Virus record (IMG/VR): IMGVR_UViG_3300036804_000340
Location: 1-28,045 of that record
Length of the DNA stretch: 28,045 nt
DNA from: a virus
Strand: one strand, 5' to 3'
Shown here: piece by piece, positions 2,878 through 18,038 of the stretch
Numbering within the stretch: the first letter of the stretch is position 1
How the letters are laid out: every line of letters starts with the position of its first letter
Translations under genes and position numbers: made by a program
The notes under the pieces: model-generated
What the model was told of the DNA's origin: nothing
The model's input: the letters and a program-made list of their open reading frames with translations, nothing else
The model's database searches: none

Positions 2878-3111
2878 ATGGGAATACTGACGATGATCGG
2901 ATACGCGATTCGTGATGTCTTCTGTGCAGTCTGTGTTCTCTACGTTTTGCATTGGGCGCTTTCTGCGCTCTATTGGGCCTATCGCTGCATCCTTAGAGGC
3001 GACGATCCGCGTTATGCAACCCGCTCAGTCTTCCGCAGCAATTGGCGATTCAGGCCAAATCAAGGAACAGATTGGATCGCAGTGATCTCATCAAGGTTTC
3101 GACGGAAGTGA
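2878..3111 (+). CDS. Small membrane protein, 77 aa
   Basis: A single long hydrophobic stretch spans about residues 6-38 and contains several Cys, Trp and Tyr residues. It is followed by a basic, soluble C-terminal tail ending in RRK. GCGAGAG a few bases before ATG 2878 is a reasonable ribosome site. The gene starts 21 bp after the preceding membrane protein and is likely part of the same transcript. The family is not recognised. Its size and topology would fit a small accessory subunit or an inner-membrane moron. Confidence 0.5.
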   Translation: MGILTMIGYAIRDVFCAVCVLYVLHWALSALYWAYRCILRGDDPRYATRSVFRSNWRFRPNQGTDWIAVISSRFRRK

Positions 3112-3245
3112 ACCACTTTCACTTGAGGCTAGAACATTTCACTTCTGGTGGAATCACCATCACATCTGGTGGCATTGATCGCTGCGACAATGCGACACGA
3201 CACTATACTCATGAGAACAGATACACAACAGGGGTCGAGAAGAAC
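3112..3245. repeat. Short direct repeats with about 20-bp period
   Basis: TTTCACTT occurs at 3117-3124 and 3137-3144 (period 20). TCTGGTGG occurs at 3144-3151 and 3165-3172 (period 21). The repeats therefore fall about two helical turns apart, upstream of the first promoter-terminator cassette. They could be binding sites for a regulator. They are short, so chance cannot be excluded. Confidence 0.3.
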
Positions 3246-3251
3246 TAAATA
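3246..3251 (+). promoter_or_regulatory. TAAATA promoter-like element (cassette 1)
   Basis: CTAAATA with no recognisable -35. It precedes about 60 bp without an ORF and then a hairpin terminator, so the predicted transcript would be non-coding. Confidence 0.45.
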
Positions 3252-3256
3252 CAGAC

Positions 3257-3352
3257 GCTGGGCTGAGTTTCATCATACGTCCTCTCCTGGCATTCTCCTT
3301 CACATGATGGGCCTGAACCGTTTTTGCCATTCGGTTCGGGCCTTCTGTTTTT
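3257..3352 (+). ncRNA. Candidate small RNA 1
   Basis: This interval lies between the TAAATA element at 3246-3251 and the terminator at 3310-3352. It has no ORF with a ribosome site. If transcription starts 6-7 bases after the hexamer, the RNA would be about 95 nt and end in a strong hairpin with a U-rich tail. It is inferred only from signal layout. It could instead be an untranslated spacer whose terminator serves the upstream membrane-protein genes. Confidence 0.3.
3310..3352 (+). terminator. Rho-independent terminator
   Basis: GGCCTGAACCG (3310-3320) pairs with CGGTTCGGGCC (3332-3342) through 11 bp including one G-T pair. It is followed by TTCTGTTTTT. Confidence 0.85.
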
Positions 3353-3366
3353 GCTCTGATCAGAGC

Positions 3367-3372
3367 TAAATA
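3367..3372 (+). promoter_or_regulatory. TAAATA promoter-like element (cassette 2)
   Basis: GCTAAATAC lies 14 bp after the previous terminator. It leads into a stretch with a perfect hairpin and a second terminator but no ORF. Confidence 0.45.
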
Positions 3373-3392
3373 CAAACGTCATAAAAGTACTC

Positions 3393-3431
3393 CTTCTAAA
3401 TCTTATGTCGGCTAAACTCAAGATTTAGAAG
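3393..3431. repeat. Perfect 12-bp inverted repeat, 15-nt spacer
   Basis: CTTCTAAATCTT at 3393-3404 is the exact reverse complement of AAGATTTAGAAG at 3420-3431. Each arm contains CTAAAT, the core of the recurrent promoter-like motif, in opposite orientations. It may fold as an RNA hairpin or act as a DNA operator. Confidence 0.8.
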
Positions 3432-3495
3432 ATTGAATTCAACAGTTTGATAGCTGCAATCCCATAACAGGCTCGCAGCAGACTATCAATCGACA

Positions 3496-3537
3496 CCCGT
3501 ATCCGGATTCACCTCTGGGTACGGGCTTTTCTGTTTT
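3496..3537 (+). terminator. Rho-independent terminator
   Basis: CCCGTATCC (3496-3504) pairs with GGGTACGGG (3517-3525) with one G-T pair. It is followed by CTTTTCTGTTTT. It lies five bases before the next TAAATA element. Confidence 0.85.
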
Positions 3538-3541
3538 GCAG

Positions 3542-3547
3542 TAAATA
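3542..3547 (+). promoter_or_regulatory. TAAATA element, 5 nt before an ATG
   Basis: TAAATA is followed by TTCAC and then ATG 3553. No Shine-Dalgarno fits in the gap. The spacing predicts that transcription begins at or next to the start codon. Confidence 0.5.
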
Positions 3548-3552
3548 TTCAC

Positions 3553-4032
3553 ATGAAGACTGCGCGCCGAATCACATACGACGGAACAACTCTCACGACG
3601 TTTGAGTGGGCCGCGAAGATTAGGATTCCATATGGCTTATTCGTCGCTCGCTTGAAAGCACATGGCATCTGCGCAGAGACATTCGCACCCACGCGCAAGC
3701 CTCGATCTCGCAAGCACACGCAAATCACCCACGACGGAATGACTCTCACGAAACATGAGTGGGCTGAGAGGCTTGGGATTTCATATGGAGTATTCATCAG
3801 TCGTCTAACCCGATATGGCCTCTGTGCAGAGACCTTCGCGCCTGGAATCATGGAGCGCGGTTGGCGCTTGAATCTCCCACCAACACCAGATGAACAGTCG
3901 GAGCGGGCATGCGAAGTCGAGCGGCAACGAGCAGAACGCATACGTATTGCAGCCACGCAGGGTGATCACTATCGCGAACTGTCACTGCATTACGCCAAAT
4001 ATGGACGTCCGAAACGAAATGACGTCTTTTGA
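3553..4032 (+). CDS. Tandem-repeat DNA-binding-like phage protein, 159 aa
   Basis: Two copies of a 40-residue unit occur at residues 7-46 and 58-97. Each has the pattern I-T-x-D-G-x-T-L-T-x-x-E-W-A, then a helix with Y-G-x-F, then G-[IL]-C-A-E-T-F-A-P. This resembles the small helical modules of phage and HNH-associated proteins thought to contact DNA (a G-x-T-x-x-x-x-E-W-A entry followed by a turn-helix). A linker rich in Glu and Arg leads to a C-terminal motif at 137-150 (G-D-H-Y-R-x-x-S-x-H-Y-x-x-Y) that recurs in the short ORF at 4368. The start ATG 3553 lies 5 nt after TAAATA with no ribosome site, so translation may be leaderless. The function is unproven; regulation or DNA binding is the best guess. 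Confidence 0.7.
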   Translation: MKTARRITYDGTTLTTFEWAAKIRIPYGLFVARLKAHGICAETFAPTRKPRSRKHTQITHDGMTLTKHEWAERLGISYGVFISRLTRYGLCAETFAPGIMERGWRLNLPPTPDEQSERACEVERQRAERIRIAATQGDHYRELSLHYAKYGRPKRNDVF

Positions 4033-5214: not shown

Positions 5215-5610
5215 TTACTTGTGACATGGATAGGCTTGAGTGAATGCGACAAGCACAAGCATTCGGTAGCTCATATGCAAGCTGTTTGGATTGTCATTCA
5301 AGAACTTCACGACTACCTTTGCACTTTCGAGCATCGTGATTCCGTCAACGGGCAAGCACACCGTCGCCGCCGATGGGTTCAGTTGTTTCAGTGACTTCAG
5401 CATCGAGAGAGTGTCCGTTACGCCCGAAAGATAGCCCATGCAGTGCTGCGCTTTCCCCCAGTCTTCTCCAACCGGCATATGTTGTGGAGCAGAGTTGGCT
5501 ACGATACTGCACTCTTCCAATAGATCAACTCCCGTTGGCCCAATATTGTTTTGTGCGTGTGTGTAGACAGTTGGACAGAGCAGAAGGACTGCAAGAACAA
5601 ACCATCTCAT
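5215..5610 (-). CDS. Secreted Rap1a/Tai-family-like protein, 131 aa
   Basis: A Sec signal peptide (hydrophobic residues 3-15, Ala-x-Ala-type site near T-H-A|Q at 19/20) precedes a mature domain with exactly four cysteines (34, 57, 85, 129). The pattern D-L-L-x-x-C, then A-Q-x-C-x-G-Y-L-x-G-V, then C-L-P, then F-L-N-x-x-P-x-x-L-H, ending A-Y-P-C, matches the Rap1a/Tai immunity-protein family, where two disulphides stabilise a periplasmic fold that blocks peptidoglycan amidase toxins. AGGGGG lies about 6 bases before ATG 5610. The gene is reversed between the HNH and terminase genes, a typical moron position. Its target is not shown by the sequence. It could protect the host envelope from a hydrolase or from competing cells. 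Confidence 0.75.
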   Translation of the reverse strand: MRWFVLAVLLLCPTVYTHAQNNIGPTGVDLLEECSIVANSAPQHMPVGEDWGKAQHCMGYLSGVTDTLSMLKSLKQLNPSAATVCLPVDGITMLESAKVVVKFLNDNPNSLHMSYRMLVLVAFTQAYPCHK

Positions 5611-5760: not shown

Positions 5761-6093
5761 ATGATTTCACGACACCCATTCAACGCAGAGAAGTACAAGA
5801 CGGCGGATGACATCATTGGGTTGCCTCAAAAGCATCTCGATGTGCTAGTCGGCGTATGGCGCACACCACACCTCCTATTTCCTGAAAATGTCACATACCT
5901 AGGGGCCGACCCACATTTTACCCGTCGGCATTTTAGCGCCTGTGATGATTTGTTTGAGGACGGCCTTATACAGCGCAGCATACGAGTAAAGGGTTTCTGT
6001 CAAGATATCGTCATGTCACTGAACGACGATCTGCCACCACATGCAAAAGACATACTGAACGAAGTGATGACATTCCTACAATTACAGACCTGA
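5761..6093 (+). CDS. Hypothetical protein before the terminase, 110 aa
   Basis: I do not recognise this protein. It is mixed alpha/beta in character, with two cysteines and several histidines (around residues 37-60 and 78). No signal or TM segment is seen. The start ATG 5761 is 5 nt downstream of TAAATA and lacks a Shine-Dalgarno, consistent with a leaderless message; an upstream TTG in frame would place the promoter inside the gene and is unlikely. It is followed after two bases by the small terminase gene, so it is the first gene of the packaging transcript. A regulatory or packaging-accessory role is possible. Confidence 0.6.
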   Translation: MISRHPFNAEKYKTADDIIGLPQKHLDVLVGVWRTPHLLFPENVTYLGADPHFTRRHFSACDDLFEDGLIQRSIRVKGFCQDIVMSLNDDLPPHAKDILNEVMTFLQLQT

Positions 6094-10810: not shown

Positions 10811-10816
10811 TAAATA
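10811..10816 (+). promoter_or_regulatory. TAAATA promoter-like element for the capsid gene
   Basis: ACTAAATAG lies 14 bp after the T-run of the upstream terminator. It would produce a capsid mRNA with a leader of about 135 nt. Confidence 0.5.
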
Positions 10817-10825
10817 GATGCGATG

Positions 10826-10881
10826 TCACCGGAGCTTGGCTACCTAGATAGCTGTGTTAAATCACGCATTGCTCACGGTGA
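10826..10881 (+). promoter_or_regulatory. Structured 5' leader of the major capsid mRNA
   Basis: TCACCGGAGC (10826-10835) pairs with GCTCACGGTGA (10871-10881) to give a 10-bp stem with one bulged A (10875). Inside it, GCTA (10839-10842) and TAGC (10849-10852) can form a small hairpin. A GAAGCTTC palindrome follows at 10889-10896. The rest of the leader is about 60 nt, with GAGG before ATG 10958. It may stabilise the mRNA or control capsid translation. It matches no riboswitch class I know. Confidence 0.45.
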
Positions 10882-10957
10882 AGCAACAGAAGCTTCGGCG
10901 GGTAGTCGGAGTTGTCATTGCACATATAACCACTTCCTATTTTGAGGCATATATAAA

Positions 10958-14200: not shown

Positions 14201-14665
14201 ATGTCATCAAATTCAATCATTGGTGCAGGCGCGACTATTTCCTTTTCGGCACACAGCGCAAACACCTTTCAGCCATTTGCACAGATACAAACATTCACCA
14301 TCACTCCCCCAACTGTGAGTTCTGACGAGATTACCAATCTTAGCAGTCCGCTAGTTGGCACCGCAGTTGTGGTTGAGCGCAGACCGACAAAGATTGATCC
14401 GGGCAAGTTCAGCGCCACTGTTGTCTATGATCCAAGCGACACTTCATTAGCCAATGTACGCACATTCTTCAACGCCCAGACCATTGCGGACTTCAAGGTT
14501 CAGCTACCAAAGGGCGCATCCCAGTCATCGACTGGTGATCTATACCAGTTCACTGGCTTCTTCGAAACTTATCCTATGCCGAGCGGTCTCACGGTTGATA
14601 AGCACGTCGAAGCAACTGTCGGTGTGCAGCTAACTAGCACTTGGAGCTTTACAGCAGGCAGCTAA
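14201..14665 (+). CDS. Major tail tube protein, 154 aa
   Basis: The protein is almost entirely beta-strand in character and has the tube-protein pattern: G-A-G-A-T-I-S-F near the start, a conserved I-T-N-L-S-S region around residue 45, G-K-F-S-A-T-V-V-Y-D-P-S-D around 67-78, and a final amphipathic strand (V-E-A-T-V-G-V-Q-L-T-S-T-W-S-F). It would polymerise as hexameric rings around the tape measure. It stands alone between a TAAATA element and a terminator, which fits the need for many copies per virion. Confidence 0.88.
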   Translation: MSSNSIIGAGATISFSAHSANTFQPFAQIQTFTITPPTVSSDEITNLSSPLVGTAVVVERRPTKIDPGKFSATVVYDPSDTSLANVRTFFNAQTIADFKVQLPKGASQSSTGDLYQFTGFFETYPMPSGLTVDKHVEATVGVQLTSTWSFTAGS

Positions 14666-15488: not shown

Positions 15489-18038
15489 ATGCCGAGTAAT
15501 GAAGAAGTAAAAGAACTAGTCATAAAAGCGCGGCTTGACATTGCAGAACTACAGAAGGCAACACGCCAGATGGGTTCCGAAATGCAGAGAGCAAGCCGCG
15601 AGATGCAAGGCTCCATCAAGGAGTCGAACGCGTCCATCGCATTACTTGGCGATGTCATTGGTGTCCAACTGCCACGCCATCTGCGCACGTTCGTAAGCGA
15701 ACTGCCGGGTGTGAGCACTGTACTATCAGCAGCATTCAACAGTGTTGCTATCATCGCGCTTGTCGGTGTAGTTGTTGAGGCCGGAAAGAAGGTCGCAGAG
15801 TTCATTGAGAAGAATCGCGAAGCTGCCGAGAAGCTGAAGGCATCACAGGAAGAGTTCGGACTCACAGTTCAAAAGACATACAACAGCTATCAGGAGAAAC
15901 TGCTTGAAGCTGGTATCCGCGCTGATGAATTGCGTGAGGATCATCTTGGCGCATTGCACAAACAGCTTGAACTGATCAACATGCAGGGCTTCGATCAGCT
16001 TCAGGGTGCGTTCAAGTCACTGGAGTCGGCAGCAGACAAGACATTTGACAACATCAAGAACAACTGGTTGTCAGTTGTTACTGAGTTCTCGTTTGCCCAG
16101 GCATCAGGATTCAAGGGAACGCTTGGACGATTCGGCGCTGAATACTCCTCACTTCTCGCGCAGGGCAAAGGCGATGAAGCACAACAAAAGCTGAATGAGG
16201 TTCAACAGAGAGAAGAGCAGAATCGCGCCGATCTCATTGCCATTCGTGCAACGGGAATCCGTTCATATAATCATAGCGGTCTCGTTGATGCGCCGACAAA
16301 CTCCCTGCTACAACGTTTGAAGGCAAATGGGCTCACTGACTTCTCAGACGAGACCTTCAATGCGTCAACACAGACAACTCAGGCATTGGAAGCTCAACAG
16401 AACATTGCCGCATACCAGCGCAGTCTGACGTCAGCCAACAAGAGTAATGCTATCGGCTCCTTCAACAAGGACAGCGATAGCGAGTTGATGACCGCCCTTA
16501 AATCACAACTCTCAGATCTCGAGAGCAGCGGAGCCGTTATCAATGATGCTGACAAAGCTGCCTTTTGGCGCAGTATCTTGTCCAGTCTTGTGACGGACTC
16601 GCGGCTCCATCAGCAACTTCAGGATGCATACAACCAAGCCAATGCCACAGTCGTGCGCCAAATACAGGCGAGCACTACGCGATCTCGCGAGGCAGCTTGG
16701 ACAAACGTTGGCAAAACGCAAGATCAGCAAGCATTGGAGTTCTGGCAGCAATTTGGCGAGGTCGGTAAGGAAGCGCGCTCGGACCTTGCTGAGACGCTGG
16801 CAGCTATAAAGGGCTCCATCTCGACCGACAAAACTGGCATTGACTACAGCCTTCAGCGCGGCAATATATCACAGCAGGATGCAGCCATTGCGATTGCAGA
16901 CTTGCACGCCAAGGAATACAAAGACACACTCGACGCGCTCGACAAGGCACAGATGAACGGTGTTGATGTCACGAAACAGCGAACAGCCGTAGAAGCTGAA
17001 TATGCCAGACAGCAGTTGCAGGATTCACTAGCGACTGAATCAGCATTTGGCAAGATGTTTGATCACATCCGTCAGGGTGCGCAGAACGTGCAAGAGAAGA
17101 TTGCTGCCATCATGGAGCGCACATTGGACGGCATCAATGATCAGATTGTGGGTGCGGCATTTGGTGACAAGACGAACTTCAGCAAGGTGTTTGAGCAGTC
17201 CGAACGCTCACTTGCAAAGACTTCCCTCCAATGGCTTGAGGGATCACTGCTCGGCAAGGACAAGACAAAGACGCCACAGAAGACGTTTTCGGATGCAGTA
17301 GACAAGTTCGCAAAGACTGTTAGCGGGATCGGAAGCGGCACATCCGGTTCTGGGGGTTCAGGCGCTGGTGTCGGCTCAACTGCATCATCCATCGCGTCTC
17401 ACATCCCATTCGTCAGCGGTATCGAAGACAAGATCAAGAATTCAGGCGTTGGCCAGTGGCTGCAACAAAACGGCGGCAAGTATCTACCGGGCGCAATGAG
17501 CGCAGTCGGTGGATTGATGAGCATGTTTCAAGGCCCGCAACGCTTCAAAGGTGAAGGCAGTGGGGTTGCAAATGCCCTTGCACACGCTGGATATGGCCAG
17601 AACACTGCTTCACGCATTCTCGGTGGTTTGGGTGGCATTGCCAGCGGCATTGGCGGTGCGATGTTCGCTGGTGCCGGTGGACTACAAGGCTTGAATGATA
17701 GTGACGCAGCAGGATCACTGTTTGGCGGCAGACTGTTTGGCTCTGGTGGCATATTCGACAACCTACCAGGATTTGCATCCGGTGGAGATGTAGTCGGCGG
17801 CCGTCCAATCAAAGTTGGCGAGCTTGGACCGGAACTGTTTGTTCCACATAGCAGTGGCCGAATCGTTCCCAACAACCAGATCGGTGGTGGCGCACCAACA
17901 TACAACATCGACGCAAGGGGTACTGATCCAGCGTTGACCCAAGCGAATGTGGCACGTGCCATCGCTTCAAGCAATGCTCATGCGGTCAGTCAGGCGCAGG
18001 CCAGAATGATCGACAGGCAGCGTCGCGTCCCAAGATAA
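15489..18038 (+). CDS. Tape measure protein, 849 aa
   Basis: This is the longest helical protein in the module and follows the chaperones. Residues 1-60 are heptad-like (I-A-E-L-Q-K-A-T-R-Q-M-G-S-E-M-Q). A hydrophobic stretch occurs at about 77-100, long coiled-coil regions rich in Gln, Ala and Glu occupy 110-560, and a Gly/Ser-rich linker lies near 615-640. The C terminus has the common tape-measure signature G-E-L-G-P-E-L-F-V-P-H-S-S-G-R-I-V-P. Such proteins fix tail length and may cross the host envelope at DNA ejection. By the usual ratio of about 1.5 angstrom per residue, the tail would be roughly 125 nm (an inference). GAGG about 11 bases upstream is a weak ribosome site for ATG 15489. 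Confidence 0.93.
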   Translation: MPSNEEVKELVIKARLDIAELQKATRQMGSEMQRASREMQGSIKESNASIALLGDVIGVQLPRHLRTFVSELPGVSTVLSAAFNSVAIIALVGVVVEAGKKVAEFIEKNREAAEKLKASQEEFGLTVQKTYNSYQEKLLEAGIRADELREDHLGALHKQLELINMQGFDQLQGAFKSLESAADKTFDNIKNNWLSVVTEFSFAQASGFKGTLGRFGAEYSSLLAQGKGDEAQQKLNEVQQREEQNRADLIAIRATGIRSYNHSGLVDAPTNSLLQRLKANGLTDFSDETFNASTQTTQALEAQQNIAAYQRSLTSANKSNAIGSFNKDSDSELMTALKSQLSDLESSGAVINDADKAAFWRSILSSLVTDSRLHQQLQDAYNQANATVVRQIQASTTRSREAAWTNVGKTQDQQALEFWQQFGEVGKEARSDLAETLAAIKGSISTDKTGIDYSLQRGNISQQDAAIAIADLHAKEYKDTLDALDKAQMNGVDVTKQRTAVEAEYARQQLQDSLATESAFGKMFDHIRQGAQNVQEKIAAIMERTLDGINDQIVGAAFGDKTNFSKVFEQSERSLAKTSLQWLEGSLLGKDKTKTPQKTFSDAVDKFAKTVSGIGSGTSGSGGSGAGVGSTASSIASHIPFVSGIEDKIKNSGVGQWLQQNGGKYLPGAMSAVGGLMSMFQGPQRFKGEGSGVANALAHAGYGQNTASRILGGLGGIASGIGGAMFAGAGGLQGLNDSDAAGSLFGGRLFGSGGIFDNLPGFASGGDVVGGRPIKVGELGPELFVPHSSGRIVPNNQIGGGAPTYNIDARGTDPALTQANVARAIASSNAHAVSQAQARMIDRQRRVPR

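Follow-up and report, generated by a model that had tools for sequence, protein, structure and literature searches.

The stretch of DNA analysed here (the window) is a 28,045-bp IMG/VR virus record of an HK97-type tailed phage that is known from metagenome sequence alone. It carries genes for the small terminase (6096), the large terminase (6532), the portal (8288), the protease (9987) and the major capsid protein (MCP, 10958), the last three of which were named from gene order and homology to relatives. No close phage was found in the GenBank collection, where the top large-terminase match reached about 36%, and single-protein scans gave no close relatives of the window. Relatives were obtained by alignment-guided scans of IMG/VR with alignments of the large terminase, the MCP and the head-tail protein. 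The nearest of them is L238, a 30.5-kb record whose MCP, portal and large terminase are 75%, 63% and 52% identical to those of the window; L167, a 23.5-kb record, is 47–65% identical to the window, and the 5.4-kb L239 was a further useful relative. Since L238 and L167 encode integrase-like genes, as read from their sequences, the phage group looks temperate. Positions 2627–5341 of L167 also hold a cluster resembling DpdA, QueD and FolE of 7-deazaguanine DNA modification, in which the QueD-type protein alone was confirmed, by Pfam PTPS. The window itself encodes a Rap1a immunity domain protein on the opposite (minus) strand, directly before the terminase genes (5215–5610), and, on the plus strand at 839–1339, a small protein without a PHROG or Pfam match that has an H-x-H stretch (DNDHVHMSI) recalling HUH replication proteins.

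An initial annotation had described positions 3246 to 3537 as two tandem promoter–terminator cassettes without genes, candidates for phage small RNAs, with TAAATA boxes at 3246, 3367 and 3542. All three hexamers are present at these positions on the plus strand. Late promoter 1, ACTAAATA (3244–3251), matches RCTAAATA and gives a predicted start site at 3257, when start sites are set at TAAATA+N5+1; late promoter 2, GCTAAATA (3365–3372), lies 23 nt past terminator 1 and gives a predicted start at 3378. The terminators, placed by the annotation at 3310–3352 and 3496–3537, were recovered as strong hairpins at 3309–3343 and 3496–3525. Intrinsic terminator 1 (3309–3353, plus strand) has a stem of 12 bp, 8 of them G-C, with a loop of 11, followed by the T-rich TCTGTTTTT, and intrinsic terminator 2 (3496–3536, plus strand) has a 12-bp stem with 7 G-C pairs and a loop of 6, followed by the T-rich CTTTTCTGTT. 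The predicted transcripts thus extend over 3257–3352 (about 95 nt) and 3378–3536 (about 159 nt), in agreement with the lengths of about 95 and 160 nt first proposed.

Neither unit contains a same-strand ORF of at least 20 amino acids, which bears out the claim that they hold no credible ORF. The sole overlapping plus-strand ORF of at least that size (3148–3369) begins with GTG, lacks a PHROG match and reads across both the promoter and the terminator of unit 1, while unit 2 has just one 7-codon ATG frame, which on reading the sequence has no ribosome-binding site. Late promoter 3 (TAAATA at 3542–3547, plus strand), ascribed from the outset to a real gene, lies 16 nt past terminator 2 and 5 nt before the ATG of a 159-aa gene (3553–4032, plus strand), a leaderless spacing. 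In this protein, two repeats in tandem resemble a portion of an HNH endonuclease family (phrog_3377), and its homologue in L238, 36% identical, is encoded shortly past that record's own unit.

The hexamer TAAATA occurs 12 times on the plus strand of the window and once on the minus strand, and all 12 plus-strand copies were intergenic or at gene borders according to a simple gene-calling script. Among the 4096 hexamers it ranks first between genes on the plus (coding) strand of the window, L238 and L167, with 26 of its 33 copies so placed, and permutations of its letters have at most three intergenic copies in any of these three genomes. The strand bias was seen again in L238 (9 versus 2 copies of TAAATA) and in L167 (9 versus 0 copies of CTAAATA over the record). 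The full motif, RCTAAATA, was built from the 33 sites in the three genomes, with C preceding TAAATA in 24. A −35 box is absent, as no column outside RCTAAATA exceeded 0.35 bits over the 40 bases before and the 24 bases after the hexamer. A sigma-70 promoter reading of 3246, 3367 and 3542 was dropped because a TTGACA/TATAAT scan found no matching site in the region of the units.

The sites recur at matching places. In the window and L238 one shared site precedes the small terminase or the gene at 5764, and others precede the portal, the MCP, the head-tail gene and each of the genes at 14201, 18066 and 21888; places that match among the window, L238 and L167 are the small terminase or its neighbour and the portal, MCP, head-tail and tail genes. 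Five sites (window 3542, 5750 and 18055; L238 5461; L167 15009) read TAAATA-N5-ATG, so that the mRNAs would be leaderless if transcription starts six bases past the motif, and several late phage mRNAs look leaderless or devoid of a Shine-Dalgarno sequence. Motif, strand and placement together indicate that RCTAAATA is a genuine phage-wide promoter class in this phage group. In higher-GC relatives (L166, L232–L235, L240 and L314–L319) TAAATA is missing, or rare and not promoter-placed, and no alternative conserved word was found in L166.

A strong intrinsic terminator lies 16–23 nt upstream of five TAAATA sites in the window (3367, 3542, 10811, 12189 and 21872), and a terminator followed by a promoter is therefore a usual border between transcription units in this phage. 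The stretch 3246–3540 contains two such borders without a gene between them. On this layout, the client of terminator 2 would be RNA begun at 3367, or transcripts that had run through terminator 1, and nothing else; terminator 1 could in principle serve the gene at 2878–3111, which lies 200 bases upstream. At the counterpart terminator in L238 (3779–3810), the leftward genes of any length are all on the opposite strand and, as L238 has no rightward gene upstream, RNA begun at 3741 is the sole evident client of that terminator.

Both predicted RNAs are structured beyond what their composition gives, with z-scores against dinucleotide shuffles of −3.4 for unit 1 and −5.0 for unit 2. Predicted small RNA 1 (3257–3352, plus strand) consists of a 5′-terminal hairpin (3257–3291) that begins at the first base of the RNA, an unpaired 10-base linker, AUUCUCCUUCA, and the terminator. 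Predicted small RNA 2 (3378–3536, plus strand) folds into three hairpins with a minimum free energy of −49 kcal/mol, among them hairpin a (3393–3431, plus strand), with a perfect 12-bp stem, CTTCTAAATCTT/AAGATTTAGAAG, and hairpin b (3447–3489, plus strand), located by folding. When 279 plus-strand segments were ranked by predicted structure, those starting at 3301 and 3401 came second and fourth; the top place went to 15501–15660 (z −5.6), close to where the gene at 15489 begins. The window units matched no Rfam family at the gathering cut-off, and permissive E-values gave chance-level matches; a tRNA/tmRNA search found none, and the exact hairpin pattern had no match in viral contigs. A type III toxin–antitoxin RNA was set aside, since the units are without the tandem repeats of such systems and the next gene does not seem to resemble their toxin partner.

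L238 has one syntenic unit (3741–3816), the first rightward unit of its record. Its predicted RNA (3752–3816, about 65 nt, z −4.3) has the same plan as RNA 1: a hairpin at the first base, a linker, AAUACUCCUCA, and a terminator. The late genes of the window and L238 share 64–69% DNA identity. Conservation and covariation of both segments in related phages had been suggested as a check, and the units proved not to be alignable between the window and L238: 3246–3540 does not align to L238, whereas the capsid leader does, and the local similarity of RNA 1 and the L238 RNA was no better than that of shuffles. The number of units is two in the window and one in L238, and L167, despite having the same promoters, shows no such unit; a candidate past 6306 in L167 was dropped, because the long gap there holds a small ORF and the fold (z −1.2) was no better than shuffles. 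Neither the sequence nor the number of the units is thus kept in L238, and for this reason we regard the small-RNA claim as partly supported. What stood, and what sequence and comparison establish, are the promoter class, the terminators, the absence of ORFs and the syntenic one-unit counterpart in L238; sequence conservation and a unit in L167 did not bear the claim out. On this comparison, the RNAs may be fast-evolving, like accessory regulators, or else their sequence would matter little.

The capsid leader is an observation in its own right. The 5′ leader of the MCP gene appears to contain a covarying three-way-junction RNA, mostly with a UUCRNU-type loop, which in the window lies at 10825–10883 (plus strand), about 3 nt past the predicted late start site of the promoter at 10811. 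Copies were found in L238 (10715–10772), L167 (12071–12127), L166 (11162–11217), L232 (659–713), L234 (4433–4485), L315 (8224–8282), L318 (8397–8450), L319 (8598–8656) and L023 (4809–4865). Across nine leaders, which were trimmed by hand with the structure in view and so favour that structure, two helices of the junction had 95% paired cells versus 77% in shuffles and double changes in five of seven pairs versus 2.5 in shuffles, and slid partners failed. The L023 copy was found with a covariance model built from the leaders (E 1.5e-5); some 75 bases further on is an ATG whose frame reads MTAQQK and looks like the capsid start. As the MCP leaders of L166, L232 and L238 gave no Rfam match even at E 1, the leader RNA is a candidate new RNA family.

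A CU-rich stretch, CUCC(U), occurs in all three unit RNAs (RNA 1, RNA 2 and the L238 RNA); two of them leave it unpaired, and in one it is partly unpaired. In RNA 1 an anti-Shine-Dalgarno-like CUCCU (3295–3299, plus strand) lies in the linker, unpaired by fold and accessibility; in RNA 2 CUCCU (3390–3394, plus strand) lies on the 5′ border of hairpin a, where its last bases are paired in the stem, and it fails a strict unpaired test. By chance, an unpaired CUCCU occurred in shuffles at a frequency of 0.14 for RNA 1 and 0.02 for the L238 RNA, figures that apply to a feature spotted post hoc. Pairing to start regions in the phage's own genome was energetically a little more favourable than background (p 0.06 and 0.015), with no clear target. 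CUCCU can pair with AGGAG, and blocking of ribosome-binding sites would thus be the likeliest action if the RNAs pair at all. That CUCC(U) could pair with Shine-Dalgarno sequences is no more than suggestive, and this base-pairing step, the weakest part of our explanation, is doubtful. That late RNAs made in abundance, with their anti-Shine-Dalgarno stretch exposed, would dampen Shine-Dalgarno-led translation of host or early phage mRNAs, sparing late phage mRNAs, we hold to be highly improbable.

We think it probable that the segment comprises two genuine non-coding late transcription units. They would be two complete small-RNA genes in a temperate HK97-type siphophage, each with its own RCTAAATA late promoter and each ending at an intrinsic terminator, so that late in the lytic cycle free RNAs of about 95 and about 159 nt would be made. 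Their ends should be protected by the 5′ hairpins and the terminators, and the CUCC(U) stretch, left free, may pair with host or phage mRNAs at their Shine-Dalgarno regions. We infer the production of the RNAs, its timing and their action by base pairing.

The units might instead be relics or insulators, that is, promoter–terminator leftovers whose genes have been lost, or mere separators of transcription blocks, from which RNA would possibly be made but would have no function. This would suit a variable region, in which the unit sequence is not kept in L238, the unit number differs and the gene after the units is just 36% identical, and a genome in which terminator–promoter pairs are a common border. 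However, unit 2 is strongly structured beyond its terminator, with a perfect 12-bp hairpin, a second hairpin and a z-score of −5.0, the two units stand in tandem, and a like-built unit occurs at the same place in L238, where no rightward upstream gene is there to be insulated; we consider such an origin unlikely. In phage lambda, the late promoter PR′ is followed by a short RNA and the terminator tR′, and by analogy a promoter, short RNA and terminator heading the rightward region could be 6S-like leader-attenuators, whose terminators halt late transcription until an antiterminator allows entry into the downstream genes. The L238 unit is indeed the first rightward one, but the next gene in the window has its own promoter 16 nt past terminator 2, as an RCTAAATA likewise serves each of most late blocks, so that read-through is not required. 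The window also has two successive units, and no Q-like protein was recognised, short of a dedicated search, all of which makes attenuation improbable.

Repeats with a spacing of about 21 bp (TTTCACTT..GGTGG) lie just upstream of unit 1 (window 3117–3175), and different repeats (TGCACAGGGTG) lie upstream of the L238 unit (L238 3450–3640), adjoining primase-like genes; both sets are a possible operator or origin. They would fit a role in cis at the DNA level, in which transcription or hairpins serve the start of replication or packaging and the RNAs arise incidentally. Neither intrinsic terminators nor separate promoters would be needed for this, however, and such phages are expected to have their cos-type packaging site close to the genes for HNH and the small terminase, more than 1 kb from the units. 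A role in cis is the least probable of these readings.

As probable late transcription units with a non-coding product, the window units resemble lambda 6S RNA, which is likewise short, made from a late promoter and ended by a terminator, but they differ in that the downstream gene has its own promoter and in that there are two units in tandem. Most of the phage small RNAs that have been studied well belong to a handful of enterobacterial and vibrio phages. Reviewed phage-encoded sRNAs, including VpdS, PreS, OOP and sar, are short non-coding RNAs of about 50–225 nt (PMC12197685); unlike these, the window RNAs would be late transcripts of a phage-specific promoter class, and they have no known sequence relation to them.

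In plan, the L238 RNA and RNA 1 resemble Yfr1, a cyanobacterial sRNA (RF01116) of 54–69 nt in which two hairpins flank an unpaired ACUCCUCACAC (PMC2190773). A 5′ hairpin, an unpaired ACUCCUCA and a terminator make up the L238 RNA of about 65 nt, and the elements of RNA 1 follow in the same order, with UUCUCCUUCACA. Unlike Yfr1, the L238 RNA has just 8 of the 11 conserved bases, ACUCCUCA only, and RNA 1 has CUCCUUCACA in place of ACUCCUCACAC. The L238 RNA scored 15.7 bits against the Yfr1 model, below the gathering score of 38, and the window units gave no Yfr1 match, so the likeness appears to be one of plan and not of family membership. L238 also gave an NsiR1-like Rfam match, well below the cut-off.

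The promoters themselves recall those of T4-like phages, in a published analysis of which the late promoter of phage Aeh1 is CTAAATA starting at −12 (PMC1524935). The heptamer, the lack of a −35 box and the position before most late gene blocks are shared with this T4-type promoter, and the TAAATA-N5-ATG spacing at 3542, 5750 and 18055 would give the same start site, as predicted from the sequence. A scan of proteins from the TAAATA phages, whose records are fragments, found no gp55-like sigma, no gp33 and no clamp. A sigma-70 region 2 protein is encoded before the late genes of L166 (3743–4276), a relative without the TAAATA motif. The promoter code, read here from sequence alone, predicts to the base where transcripts of uncultured temperate phages begin, and so opens their small RNAs to direct tests. 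Unlike the T4-type system, these promoters sit in temperate HK97-type siphophages and, if this is a true T4-type late promoter, the strategy would not be limited to T4-like myophages.
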